A stretch of DNA of 64,000 nucleotides from Solirubrobacter deserti (GTDB lineage Bacteria > Actinomycetota > Thermoleophilia > Solirubrobacterales > Solirubrobacteraceae), in assembly GCF_003344625.1 (NCBI RefSeq), contig NZ_QPKJ02000004.1, forward strand, positions 248,001 through 312,000, written 5' to 3'. How positions within the stretch are numbered: the stretch's first letter is position 1; each line of letters starts with the position of its first letter. The position numbers and the translations under genes are program-made. The notes beneath the pieces are model-generated. The model made no database searches. It saw only the letters and a list, made by a program, of their open reading frames with translations, and had not been told where the DNA came from. Of this stretch, positions 36,268 to 38,867 are shown piece after piece.

Positions 36268-36549
36268 TTGAGCGCTGAGGCACCGAGATGGTGGACGGTG
36301 CGGCCGGCGGCGAACCTCAAGCCGGTCACCTATCGCTGCCCGTTCTGCAAGGAGCACCTCCCGGCGCTGATGGAGCACGTGCTCGTGCTGCCTGAAGGCG
36401 ACACCCGTCGGCGCCGGCACGCGCACACGGAGTGCGCGCTGGCCGAGAGCCGCGCCGGGCGGCTGCCGTCGCGCGATCAGTGGCTCGCGACGCAGCCGCA
36501 GCGCCCGGGTCGCTTGGCGCGGCTGTTCGCCAGAAGCCGCGCACGCTGA
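36268..36549 (+). CDS. Small zinc-ribbon-like hypothetical protein
   Basis: The 93-residue product (from TTG 36268; GTG 36298 is an alternative) has YRCPFCKEHLPALMEHVLVL, then an Arg/His-rich stretch and H-T-E-C-A. The C-x2-C plus H-x2-C spacing suggests a zinc site. An Arg-rich tail follows. No family name is recognised. It lies 10 bp downstream of the Rho-N-like gene. Confidence 0.66.
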   Translation: MSAEAPRWWTVRPAANLKPVTYRCPFCKEHLPALMEHVLVLPEGDTRRRRHAHTECALAESRAGRLPSRDQWLATQPQRPGRLARLFARSRAR

Positions 36550-36678
36550 CGTCGCGGGCGCGGACTCGAACCCGCCGCGCCGCGGACTCGAACCGCCGAG
36601 CCGCTTGCGACACCCGCCACGACCTCCTACCTTCCGTCACCGCATGACAAGCAGCCGCCGAGAACTGAATCTGTTCCA
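36550..36678. other. Non-coding region before the Ro60 RNA cluster
   Basis: No protein is supported here. The segment starts with two near-identical 17-20 nt blocks (see the repeat entry) and then runs into the candidate stem-loop RNA. Minus-strand ORFs across it and the tRNA-like gene are artefacts. Confidence 0.5.
36560..36597 (-). repeat. Two T-arm-like direct repeats
   Basis: The block GCGGACTCGAACCCGCC (36560-36576) is repeated almost exactly as GCGGACTCGAACCGCC (36582-36597). On the minus strand each reads like a tRNA T-arm with a GGTTCGAGTCC core. The stems support only about four pairs, so these are not complete tRNA arms. They could be tRNA-derived debris. Confidence 0.45.
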
Positions 36679-36749
36679 CGCCCTCGTCCGGAGGTGCGTC
36701 CACGCCTGAGCCGTGCTCGGACACGTAGACGCATCGCTACACGAGGGCG
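36679..36749 (+). ncRNA. Candidate 71-nt stem-loop RNA (possible Y RNA) upstream of Ro60
   Basis: CGCCCTCGT (36679-36687) pairs perfectly with ACGAGGGCG (36741-36749). Inside, GGTGCGTC (36693-36700) pairs with GACGCATC (36728-36735, one G-T). An apical TGAG/CTCG hairpin lies near 36707-36720. The result is a long interrupted stem with internal loops and an apical loop. A strong intrinsic terminator starts within its 3' arm. Y RNAs bind Ro60 through a long terminal helix with bulges, and this RNA lies about 280 bp upstream of a Ro60 gene. No covariance evidence is available. It could instead be the 3' UTR of the upstream gene. Confidence 0.5.
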
Positions 36750-36770
36750 GCCCGGCGGGCCGCCCTTTTT
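36745..36770 (+). terminator. Intrinsic terminator
   Basis: GGGCGGCCC (36745-36753) pairs perfectly with GGGCCGCCC (36757-36765) around GGC, followed at once by TTTTT (36766-36770). It is one of the few canonical hairpin-plus-T terminators visible in the window. It implies that a plus-strand transcript ends here, just upstream of the tRNA-like gene. Confidence 0.85.
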
Positions 36771-36800
36771 CGTTCTTTGACAACTGAACACGCAACACAG

Positions 36801-36875
36801 ACGCTCGTAGCTCAGTGGACTGAGAGCACCGCCCTGCGACGGCGGAGGCCGCTGGTTCGAATCCAGCCGGGCGTG
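36801..36875 (+). tRNA. tRNA-like gene, formally tRNA-Arg(GCG); candidate Ro60-associated tRNA mimic
   Basis: A full cloverleaf is present. The acceptor is ACGCTCG (36801-36807) with CGGGCGT (36868-36874). The D-arm is GCTC/GAGC, the anticodon arm CCGCC-CTGCGAC-GGCGG (anticodon GCG at 36836-36838), the variable loop 5 nt, and the T-arm GCTGG-TTCGAAT-CCAGC. The discriminator is G and CCA is not encoded. Anticodon GCG would read CGC, but most bacteria read CGN with ACG, so this is unusual. An alternative 8-bp stem can form between GAACACGC (36786-36793) and GCGTGTTT (36871-36878), enclosing the arms. That layout recalls tRNA-mimicking bacterial Y RNAs (YrlA), which are often beside Ro60 genes. 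Either identity remains possible. Confidence 0.7.
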
Positions 36876-36877
36876 TT

Positions 36878-36990
36878 TCACCGCGGGCCGGAGGGTGCCG
36901 GTTATCGCCTGTCACGCGCAGGGACTCGAAACCCCTGCCCCGGCGTCTGCTCGACGCCGGGTTCCGATGCCCACACCACGACCGCGGTGA
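36878..36990 (+). ncRNA. Structured segment between the tRNA-like gene and Ro60
   Basis: TCACCGCGG (36878-36886) pairs perfectly with CCGCGGTGA (36982-36990), closing 113 nt. Inside are a 6-bp hairpin GCAGGG/CCCTGC (36918-36938) with loop ACTCGAAAC, and a strong 9-bp hairpin CCCGGCGTC/GACGCCGGG (36939-36961) with a TGCTC loop. It may be a second small RNA, or a structured 5' leader of the Ro60 mRNA, since the Ro60 start lies 38 bp further on. Confidence 0.45.
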
Positions 36991-37028
36991 TGTCTTGATC
37001 ACACCTGACCCGAAAGGAGGTCGATCCC

Positions 37029-38867
37029 ATGAACTACCTCACCCGCTTCGGCCTCCGGCGCACGCGCCAGAGCGAGCCGATCCCCGGCACCGCCCAGGTG
37101 CGCAACTCGGCCGGCGGCTACGCGTGGGCCGTCGACGACTGGACGCGGCTGCGCCGCTTCCTGATCCTCGGCAGCGAGGGCGGCTCGTACTACGCGCGTG
37201 AGCAGACGCTGACGCGCGAGAACGCGCTGGCCGTCAGCCGGGCGATCGCGGCCGACGGTCCGCGCGCCGTCCGCGAGATCGTGACGATCTCCCGCGAGGG
37301 CCGCGCCCCGAAGAACGACCCCGCGATCTTCGCCCTCGCGCTCGCCGCGGCGGCCGAGGACGAGGCGACGCGCAAGCTCGCCCTCGACGCGCTGCCGGCC
37401 GTGTGTCGCACCGGCACGCACCTGTTCGCGTTCACCCGCTACGTCGAGCAGTTCCGCGGCTGGGGCCGCGGCCTGCGCCGCGCTGTCGGCGCCTGGTACG
37501 TCGACCAGTCCCCGGACCGGCTCGCCTACCAGGCCATCAAGTACCGCCAGCGCGACGGCGTCAGCCACCGCGACGTGCTCCGCCTCGCCCACCCGGGCGC
37601 GAAGACCCGCGCGGGCAACCCGCGCCTGGCCGTCACGGACGAGCAGGCGCGGCTGTTCGAGTGGATCGTGCGCGGCGGCGCGGCCGCGGCGGGCGGCGGC
37701 GATGACGCGGCGCGCGGCGAGGTCGCGGCTCGTGGCGGCGAGGACGCGGCTCGCGGCGACGTGGTGGGCGGCGGCGGGCCCGCGGCCCGTGGCGACGAGA
37801 TCACGGCGCGCGGCGACGTGCCGCGCGGTGACGCGGTGCGCGGTGACGCGGTGCGCGGCGCGGCTTCGGCCGGCGCCGGTGACGGCGTTGCGGTCGGTGA
37901 GGCCACGGATGGCCGTCTCCCGGCCCTCGTCGCCGCGTTCACCGCCGCGCAGGCGGCGGGCACCACGGCCGAGACGGCGCGGCTCGTGCGCGAGCACGGG
38001 CTGCCGCGTGAGGCGGTCAAGCCCGAGCACCTCGACGATGCCGAGGTGTGGGCGGCGCTGCTCGAGCGGATGCCGATGACGGCGCTGCTGCGCAACCTCG
38101 CCACGCTCACGCGTGTCGGGGTCATCGCGCCCGGCTCGTACGGGACCGACTACGCGGCCGAGCAGCTCGCGGACGCGGAGCGCTTGCGCAAGGCGCGGGT
38201 GCACCCGATCGCGGTGCTGTCGGCGATGCGGACCTACGCGAGCGGGCGAGGCGTGCGCGGCCGGCACACGTGGGCGCCGGTGGGGCGGATCGTCGACGCG
38301 CTCGACGCCGCGTTCTACACGGCGTTCGGCAACGTGGAGCCGGCGAACGCACGCATGATGCTCGCGCTCGACGTGTCGGGCTCGATGACGTTCGGTGAGA
38401 TCGCCGGCGTGCCGGGGCTGACGCCGCGGGATGCGTCCGCGGCGCTTGCGCTCGTGACCGCGGCGACGGAGCCGCGCTACGAGATCGTGGGCTTCACCGG
38501 CAGCCTCACGCCGCTGGCGATCAGCCCGCGGCAGCGGCTGACCGACGCGGTGAAGGCCGTGTCGGACCTGCCGTTCGGCTCGACCGACTGCGCGCTGCCG
38601 ATGCGCTACGCGCTCGCCAAGGGGTACGAGATCGACACGTTCGTGATCTACACCGACAGCGAGACGTGGTACGGCGACATCCTCCCGGTGCAGGCGCTGC
38701 GCGAGTACCGCGAGCGGACCGGGATCGCCGCGCGGCTCGTGGTCGTCGGCATGGTCGCGAACCGGTTCACGATCGCCGACCCCGAGGACCCGGGGATGCT
38801 CGACATCGTCGGGTTCGACGCCGCGACGCCGGAAGTGGTCTCCGGCTTCGCGCGCGGGGTGGTGTAG
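37029..38867 (+). CDS. rsr: Ro60/Rsr protein (TROVE plus vWA domains)
   Basis: The 612-residue product is a bacterial Ro60 orthologue. The TROVE HEAT-repeat ring starts at MNYLTRF and includes GGYAWAVDDWTRLRRFLILG, LFAFTRYVEQFRGWGRGLR and RDVLRLAHP. It resumes after an insert with MTALLRNLATLTRVG and KARVHPIAVLSAMRTYASG. The C-terminal vWA domain has an intact MIDAS: DVSGSM, STD and YTDSETW. Ro60 binds Y RNAs and misfolded RNAs and aids RNA decay and stress survival. Residues about 217-292 are an Ala/Gly/Arg/Asp-repeat insert. AGGAGG at 37015-37020 fixes the start. Structured RNAs lie directly upstream. Confidence 0.95.
   Translation: MNYLTRFGLRRTRQSEPIPGTAQVRNSAGGYAWAVDDWTRLRRFLILGSEGGSYYAREQTLTRENALAVSRAIAADGPRAVREIVTISREGRAPKNDPAIFALALAAAAEDEATRKLALDALPAVCRTGTHLFAFTRYVEQFRGWGRGLRRAVGAWYVDQSPDRLAYQAIKYRQRDGVSHRDVLRLAHPGAKTRAGNPRLAVTDEQARLFEWIVRGGAAAAGGGDDAARGEVAARGGEDAARGDVVGGGGPAARGDEITARGDVPRGDAVRGDAVRGAASAGAGDGVAVGEATDGRLPALVAAFTAAQAAGTTAETARLVREHGLPREAVKPEHLDDAEVWAALLERMPMTALLRNLATLTRVGVIAPGSYGTDYAAEQLADAERLRKARVHPIAVLSAMRTYASGRGVRGRHTWAPVGRIVDALDAAFYTAFGNVEPANARMMLALDVSGSMTFGEIAGVPGLTPRDASAALALVTAATEPRYEIVGFTGSLTPLAISPRQRLTDAVKAVSDLPFGSTDCALPMRYALAKGYEIDTFVIYTDSETWYGDILPVQALREYRERTGIAARLVVVGMVANRFTIADPEDPGMLDIVGFDAATPEVVSGFARGVV

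Follow-up and report, generated by a model that had tools for sequence, protein, structure and literature searches.

A 64-kb window of the Solirubrobacter deserti genome (contig NZ_QPKJ02000004.1, positions 248,001 to 312,000; the whole stretch of DNA that was analyzed, from whose first base all coordinates are counted) contains what sequence comparison identifies as a real, conserved chromosomal Ro60/Y-RNA locus, where, as its new feature, a real tRNA gene is joined to a Y RNA. Three structured RNAs precede the Ro60 gene (37029–38867): a hairpin with its terminator (RNA 1, 36680–36770), a cloverleaf (RNA 2, 36801–36875) and a closed RNA (RNA 3, hereafter Y2, 36878–36990). A first-pass annotation of this DNA had placed three such candidates within 350 bp upstream of Ro60, and all of them are found where it put them, the first starting 349 bp before the Ro60 start. 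Comparison with relatives establishes, as far as sequence can, the identity of Ro60, the nature of Y2 as a covarying Y RNA, the presence of a tRNA gene and the recurrence of its abutment with a Y RNA. The reading that we favor, and hold to be moderately probable, is that of a chromosomal Ro60 ribonucleoprotein cassette in which processing of the tRNA would make the 5' end of Y2.

Ro60 and its covarying Y RNA

The gene at 37029–38867 (plus strand, 612 aa, with a ribosome binding site, AAAGGAGG, at 37013–37020 on the same strand) encodes, by its domain and structure matches, a genuine bacterial Ro60 (Rsr), as had been proposed from the sequence alone. The Pfam models TROVE (E 3.3e-43) and vWA_Ro60 (E 6.9e-62) match above cut-off at 37029–38864, and the closest PDB structure is Deinococcus radiodurans Rsr (2nvo, E 1.6e-127), with two further Ro60 sequences also near. 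The vWA metal-site motif DVSGSM aligns with Rsr, and the segment KYRQRDGVSHRDVLRLAH is aligned to KYKQRNGWSHKDLLRLSH of 1yvp in the TROVE domain, where K, R and H correspond to the Y-RNA-contacting residues of Xenopus Ro60. Residues 1–612 match the record of S. deserti CPCC 204708 (L011) at 100%, and relatives of the protein are common in phages (342 phage records match it). Between two matched TROVE stretches lies a long, repetitive Ala/Gly/Arg-rich insertion (37665–37890) that gives no alignment to D. radiodurans Rsr.

Y2 is, by comparison with relatives, a Y RNA. Its fold (36878–36990) has a z-score of -3.1, with 1 of 200 shuffles equally stable; the minus strand folds no less readily (z -3.8), and stability by itself does not indicate the strand. 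Y2 has the closing helix CACCGCGG/CCGCGGTG with the core GGGCCGGAG ... CACCACGACC. One to three copies of this element precede Ro60 in each of four other Solirubrobacter species, all with a fixed core (GGGCCGGAG or GGGCCGAAG, then GGTTAYC, then CACGACC or CATGACC) and with closing stems that differ yet pair. Searching with covariance models, as the first-pass annotation had advised, was productive in part. Rfam, applied at gathering score to the window and at E ≤ 5 to the region, yielded no Y RNA or YrlA match, only tRNA reaching gathering, and at gathering score 14 related loci likewise yielded tRNAs only and no Y RNA family. For this reason a purpose-built covariance model, R1, was needed; it was trained on 15 Y RNAs from relatives, none from S. 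deserti (E-values of such models are rough), and its sole match in the window up to E 10 is 36877–36991 on the plus strand (63.5 bits, E 1.4e-10). On the whole genome Y2 is the better of two matches (E 1.7e-8). The other (G000:C200:805531-805669) is weak (28.6 bits, E 0.14) and lies away from the Ro60 locus.

The recognition of Y2 by a model not trained on its species and the strong covariation of its closing helix together carry the assignment, and they bear out the earlier view of the closed structure as a candidate Y RNA, with compensatory changes in relatives. Pairing extends to 94.7% of cells in the underlying alignment (A1), with a covariation score of 0.528; shuffles give 0.184, with none of 500 as high, and slid versions do not exceed 0.159. 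The score is favored by the derivation of the structure from A1 itself. An independent pairing test used 174 matches from 82 loci and 8 phage regions, of which 151 have a 3' motif and 105 exactly one, without any use of pairing in the choice of partner. These 105 form on average 4.15 of five closing pairs with their own partner vs. 2.73 with swapped partners, and all five pairs are perfect in 67 of them vs. 7.9% after swapping.

The distribution of such elements also follows Ro60. A descriptor of the 5' core, run on both strands of 83 Ro60 loci, one locus being from the species of the window, yielded 175 Y-like matches in 70 of them, a few evidently false, vs. 11 matches in all for one base-shuffled copy per locus. 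With about 2.5 Y-like matches per positive locus, several candidate RNAs at one Ro60 locus, which had been flagged as notable, are the usual condition. At E ≤ 0.01 R1 has matches in 14 of the 24 Ro60-bearing sources outside training (out of 32 sources, 7 in training) and none in the single Ro60-less region among the 32; it finds none in 13 Ro60-less whole genomes at that threshold, with the best 150 candidates per genome scored, and matches 4 of 8 phage records searched whole (best 150 candidates each). It also matches 7 of 8 Ro60-bearing genomes, a count that is no evidence, all seven having supplied training sequences.

A tRNA gene abutting the Y RNA

The cloverleaf upstream of Y2 is complete, as first described, and it is a canonical tRNA gene. 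ARAGORN calls tRNA-Arg(gcg) at 36801–36875 on the plus strand; the Rfam tRNA score is 65.7 bits (threshold 29), rank 23 of 52 among the tRNA matches of the genome, the D and T loops are canonical, the order is unpermuted, and the free energy is unremarkable (z -1.1, 32 of 200 shuffles equally stable). Its interpretation as a YrlA-type mimic was therefore rejected: the structure is unpermuted, scores like the other tRNAs of the genome and lies outside the Y RNA. It carries A20, C35, G36 and G73, which fit arginine identity. Since Arg tRNAs with anticodons ACG, CCG, TCT and CCT are all encoded elsewhere in the genome, tRNA-Arg(GCG) is supernumerary, and its membership in the basic Arg set was likewise rejected.

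This tRNA gene accompanies Ro60 in all six Ro60-bearing genomes of the genus that were examined (five species, two genomes being of the same species) at 91–100% identity. In a seventh genome (G002), which lacks Ro60, the sole counterpart is a diverged tRNA-Arg(gcg) (86% over ~61 nt) within a 15-tRNA stretch that is phage-like in appearance, and in phage Comrade a tRNA-Arg(gcg) follows the Ro60 gene at a distance of ~1.3 kb; because of these two copies, we infer that the gene may be of phage origin. A pattern search for the tRNA in 299 genomes of the class relied on a fixed spacing and failed to recover the known copy in one genome (G001), and its count of 2 in 299 is not used as evidence of absence. 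On a 10-kb contig of the same genome (G000:C77; L119, L148) there is a second tRNA cluster (Asp, Glu, Tyr, Thr), which may be phage-derived.

The joint itself is tight: the last base of the tRNA is 36875 and the first of the Y2 helix 36878, one or two bases on. To place it in context, R1 and ARAGORN were applied to 25 sources, giving 40 Y matches at E ≤ 0.1 (48 at E ≤ 10) in 19 of them; R1 matches include two unpaired bases. Five tRNA calls that fell on Y RNAs (L024, L133, L185, L187) and one lacking a clear anticodon (L035) were dropped by hand, and one GenBank-annotated tRNA-Tyr of phage Trina was added. For eleven of these 40 the Y RNA start falls between -3 and +2 nt relative to the 3' end of a tRNA, vs. 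a mean of 0.28 and a maximum of 4 in 2000 draws of random placement within 1 kb. These eleven comprise six from Solirubrobacter (Arg, Arg-like, Asp), one from another Thermoleophilia family (G209; His), two from a Kofleriaceae metagenome-assembled genome (MAG; two Glu) and two from Gordonia phage Sixama (Arg, Ile). In Sixama an alternation of tRNA, Y, tRNA and Y can be read by eye, with 2 of 4 Y RNAs at R1 E < 0.01; in S. taibaiensis (L012) the abutting Arg-like gene has, by eye, an acceptor-stem mismatch. The constant position in four separate contexts and with different tRNAs points to a common role in processing more than to one in decoding. As a separate observation, six Chloroflexi loci (L023, L024, L026, L027, L029, L079) have Ro60 ~0.5–0.7 kb downstream of 10–20 tRNA calls, with Y-like RNAs between. 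The literature found, seen in part and without the primary Y RNA papers, contains no description of tRNA–Y RNA abutment.

We infer for the cassette a promoter, read-through, processing, Ro60 binding and a function, in the following form. A promoter near 36605 would give one transcript with RNA 1 and its leaky terminator, tRNA-Arg(GCG), Y2 and the Ro60 mRNA. The tRNA would be matured by RNase P on the 5' side and, on the 3' side, by either RNase Z or a trimming RNase, and the 3' cut, one or two bases before the closing helix, would create the 5' end of Y2; tRNA-Arg(GCG) would thus double as a working tRNA and a punctuation mark. Released or still in the Ro60 leader, Y2 would bind the Ro60 ring through its conserved bulged helix and serve as a gate or tether for Ro60, as in other bacteria.

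Several points weigh against this scheme. With a strong terminator closing RNA 1, expression of Y2 and Ro60 would need read-through or an unseen promoter, and the proposal would account for the 5' end of Y2 only, not for its 3' end. Gaps between tRNA and Y RNA are 18 nt in G005, 7, 9, 13 and 83 nt in Chloroflexi loci, and 34 to 138 nt in others; for 19 of the 40 Y RNAs the preceding 150 nt contain no tRNA, and, calls on Y RNAs aside, most named actinobacterial loci have no ARAGORN tRNA beside Ro60. Abutment is, accordingly, not a general need. Six of the eleven abutting cases come from one genus and are not independent, and G113, the only one of the eight Ro60-bearing genomes outside training, has no R1 match.

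Alternatively, tRNA-Arg(GCG) may be kept for decoding, or as a phage-type spare that reads CGC/CGU directly and possibly resists nucleases acting on the host's tRNA-Arg, its abutment with Y2 being incidental compaction. That the genome already has four other Arg tRNAs fits such a role, as does the anticodon loop CTGCGAC, unchanged in the five species (by eye) while the stems vary. Further in its favor are the phage-type settings of tRNA-Arg(gcg) in G002 and Comrade and a proposal (PMC10264068) that phage tRNAs evade anticodon nucleases through loop changes. It leaves unexplained, however, why different tRNAs, the Arg-like gene of L012 included, keep the same spacing before Y RNAs, and we regard it as rather unlikely as a full account; a spare-tRNA role is compatible with punctuation, and both could hold.

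In another alternative, Y2 would be chiefly a cis-acting leader of the Ro60 mRNA, through which bound Ro60 represses its own translation, so that no free Y RNA is needed. Y2 does end 39 nt before the start codon, within the presumed Ro60 5' leader, and in many among the loci listed the last Y RNA begins ~100–150 nt upstream of Ro60. Extra Y copies farther upstream, and phage Y RNAs away from Ro60 (in Sixama, and in ET08 at 92–94 kb), do not suit a leader, and bacterial Y RNAs are known as free RNAs (PMC8394870), all of which makes this alternative improbable compared with a processed Y2.

The tRNA-like interior and the YrlA class

YrlA is described in PMC8394870 as the tRNA-mimicking class of Y RNA, with D, T and acceptor arms. 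The tRNA mimicry originally proposed for the locus relates to a different RNA than was supposed: at many related loci one Y RNA contains a circularly permuted tRNA inside the Y loop, and in S. deserti the corresponding part is degenerate. The permuted order is GGTTAYC, variable region, T arm, acceptor 3' strand, short loop, acceptor 5' strand, D arm and 3' Y strand, and 59 of 172 Y-like matches, from 45 of 69 loci, carry both a T and a D motif. In our reading the interior of Y2 resembles YrlA in its order, with an anticodon-like hairpin sequence, a T-arm-like hairpin and a closed acceptor-like stem between the Y strands. It differs in lacking a D arm and in its modified T arm (GCAGGGA CUCGAAA CCCCUGC, with a mismatched stem), for which reason Y2 is not a full YrlA; no Solirubrobacter copy was classed with T and D arms in a motif scan. 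By its sequence, Y2 is best described as derived from the YrlA class, not a member of it.

A hairpin of 3 bp and 7 nt stands right after GGTTA in 32 of the 57 Y RNAs that carry both the T and the D motif, vs. 0–9 at 19 other offsets, and many of the remaining 25 look, by eye, permuted within the anticodon loop. The hairpin also occurs in 6 of 46 Y RNAs with the T motif only and in 16 of 71 with neither motif. A stem-swap control (mean 20.3) is weak because CCA/TGG is a common stem, and the case rests on the loop: in the 32 loops C32 is present in 30, U33 in 28 and A37 in 22, position 38 is only A or C, and there are 18 different triplets; over all classes U33 is found in 45 of 54 loops. Twenty-four of these 45 loops equal an anticodon loop of a tRNA in this genome vs. 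16.2 with positions 37–38 permuted (reached in 0.0008 of permutations), and with a wider tRNA set 28 of 45 are identical vs. 21.6 (0.004); these statistics are approximate, related sequences having been counted separately.

In the Solirubrobacter Y2 copies the loop is CUGUCAA or CUGUCAC, as in the two tRNA-Asp of the genome, and both strands of its stem vary (AUCGC/GCGAU, ACCGC/GCGGU); in one relative the loop is 6 nt long. The predicted ensemble favors the hairpin in four Y RNAs of other Solirubrobacter species (pair probability 0.57–0.80), not in copy 1 of L012. In the window Y2 the sequence is present (CGC CUGUCAC GCG) and disfavored (0.003), and folding of four full tRNA-like YrlAs in the same way did not show it. 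We consequently make no claim of an anticodon hairpin for S. deserti, and for YrlAs the suggestion draws on sequence statistics. Judged by sequence, relatives' YrlAs often keep this anticodon-type hairpin, which goes unmentioned in the YrlA literature found, and no anticodon arm in YrlA is described there; that literature was available in part and did not include the primary Y RNA papers.

A broader proposal, which we offer as tentative and perhaps correct, has two parts. tRNA genes would punctuate Ro60 loci and Ro60 phages, so that tRNA-processing enzymes free the Y RNAs and tie Y supply to tRNA metabolism; in addition, many actinobacterial mimic Y RNAs would be complete circularly permuted tRNAs, with anticodon arms that copy particular tRNAs and are suited to lure anticodon nucleases as decoys; Y2 of Solirubrobacter, with its CUGUCAC resembling tRNA-Asp, would be a reduced form. 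Competition of YrlA for an anticodon nuclease has been suggested (PMC7790460).

Further arrangements were observed at other loci. In a Chloroflexi (Ardenticatenaceae MAG) locus, L024:3694-3831, a Y RNA seems to enclose in its loop, flanked by the Y helix, a complete and unpermuted tRNA-like cloverleaf (a weak match, 15.7 bits). In prophage prophiGD43A-5 an annotated tRNA-Thr(tgt) overlaps the Y RNA match L187:3253-3390, and about five Y RNAs, of which this is the first, appear by eye in a row before Ro60 (L187:3250-3980), three of them by model with E up to 1.

RNA 1, flanking elements and known systems

RNA 1 (Y1) is a 69-nt hairpin at 36680–36748 on the plus strand, and the stem-loop with intrinsic terminator seen at first pass is well founded. 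The fold of 36676–36775 has -51.9 kcal/mol (z -3.9, none of 200 shuffles equally stable), and the sole terminator-like site in 36300–37060 (36743–36767; the terminator feature is drawn at 36743–36770, plus strand, conserved in five species) follows directly, sharing GAGGGC with the closing strand of the hairpin. RNA 1 and Y2 have CCGGAG and ACACGA in common. RNA 1 has no R1 match up to E 10 with default filters and is weakly Y-RNA-like with filters off (8.9 bits, E 0.025 over 161 nt); our best guess from the sequence is that it may be a second, diverged Y RNA. The expected conservation of paired bases in relatives is thus strong for the Y2 helix and slight for RNA 1, whose five-species alignment (mean identity 88%) has double changes in 2 of 28 pairs.

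The few covarying pairs of RNA 1, together with the ease with which GC-rich sequence folds, would suit an origin of both non-tRNA structures as chance folds. The shuffle controls, the five-species conservation and the covariation and R1 match of Y2 speak against this; covariation already refutes it for Y2, and for the two structures together we consider it most improbable.

RNA 1, its terminator, a promoter-like site and an element like TTCTTTGACAACTG are kept in five species. The promoter-like site (TTGCGA, 17 nt, TACCTT; 36605–36633, plus strand) is conserved upstream of RNA 1 by eye; a sigma-70 scan called no promoter, this site included. Farther 5', two direct copies of GGACTCGAACC (36562–36572 and 36584–36594, assigned to neither strand) resemble antisense tRNA T arms; by eye, similar boxes stand at the equivalent place in L012, L013 and L005 and a single one in L004, and they are a possible operator. 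The conserved TTCTTTGACAACTG (36773–36786, plus strand), perhaps boxA-like, is near-identical in the five species; this is its sole exact copy in the genome, and one further copy with a mismatch is at a locus without a tRNA. The gene region upstream of the Solirubrobacter locus is also present, by eye, in S. phytolaccae. An empty-site comparison with the Ro60-less G002, where the best formamidase homologue has (by eye) a different neighbor on the Ro60 side, gave no clean empty site.

Chen et al. (2014) reportedly described bacterial Ro60/Y RNA loci as widespread. The present locus is like those of the D. radiodurans Rsr–Y RNA type in having Y RNA just upstream of Ro60 on the same strand, with a 5'/3' helix and a conserved core; unlike that type, it has a real tRNA gene abutting the Y RNA and an RNA 1 with its own terminator. 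Ro60–Y RNAs, the tRNA mimicry of YrlA and PNPase tethering are already established (PMC8394870; PMC7790460). The Salmonella rsr-yrlBA-rtcBA RNA repair operon likewise combines Ro60 with more than one Y RNA, whereas no tRNA gene is described there in the available portion of PMC7790460. None of five scanned neighborhood proteins here is RtcB or RtcA; RtcB matches lie on other contigs (C1, C93, C200), and the search for RtcA was confined to these five proteins. In the tRNA arrays of Gordonia phage Sixama, Streptomyces phage Comrade and Rhodococcus phage Trina, Ro60 also stands among tRNAs, with Y RNAs alternating with tRNAs in Sixama and a tRNA-Arg(gcg) in Comrade; unlike these arrays, the locus in Solirubrobacter is part of the chromosome and includes one or two tRNAs. 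Work on a Listeria phage counts Y RNAs among the explanations considered for abundant RNAs close to tRNA genes (PMC12282133).

Overall, the comparison carries a caution for annotation, as some annotated tRNAs beside Ro60 are Y RNAs, e.g., the "tRNA-Thr" in prophiGD43A-5. The near-constant joint of a real tRNA and a Y RNA, in unrelated bacteria and phage, offers a directly testable route of Y RNA processing, and the anticodon-type hairpins offer a testable reason for tRNA mimicry.

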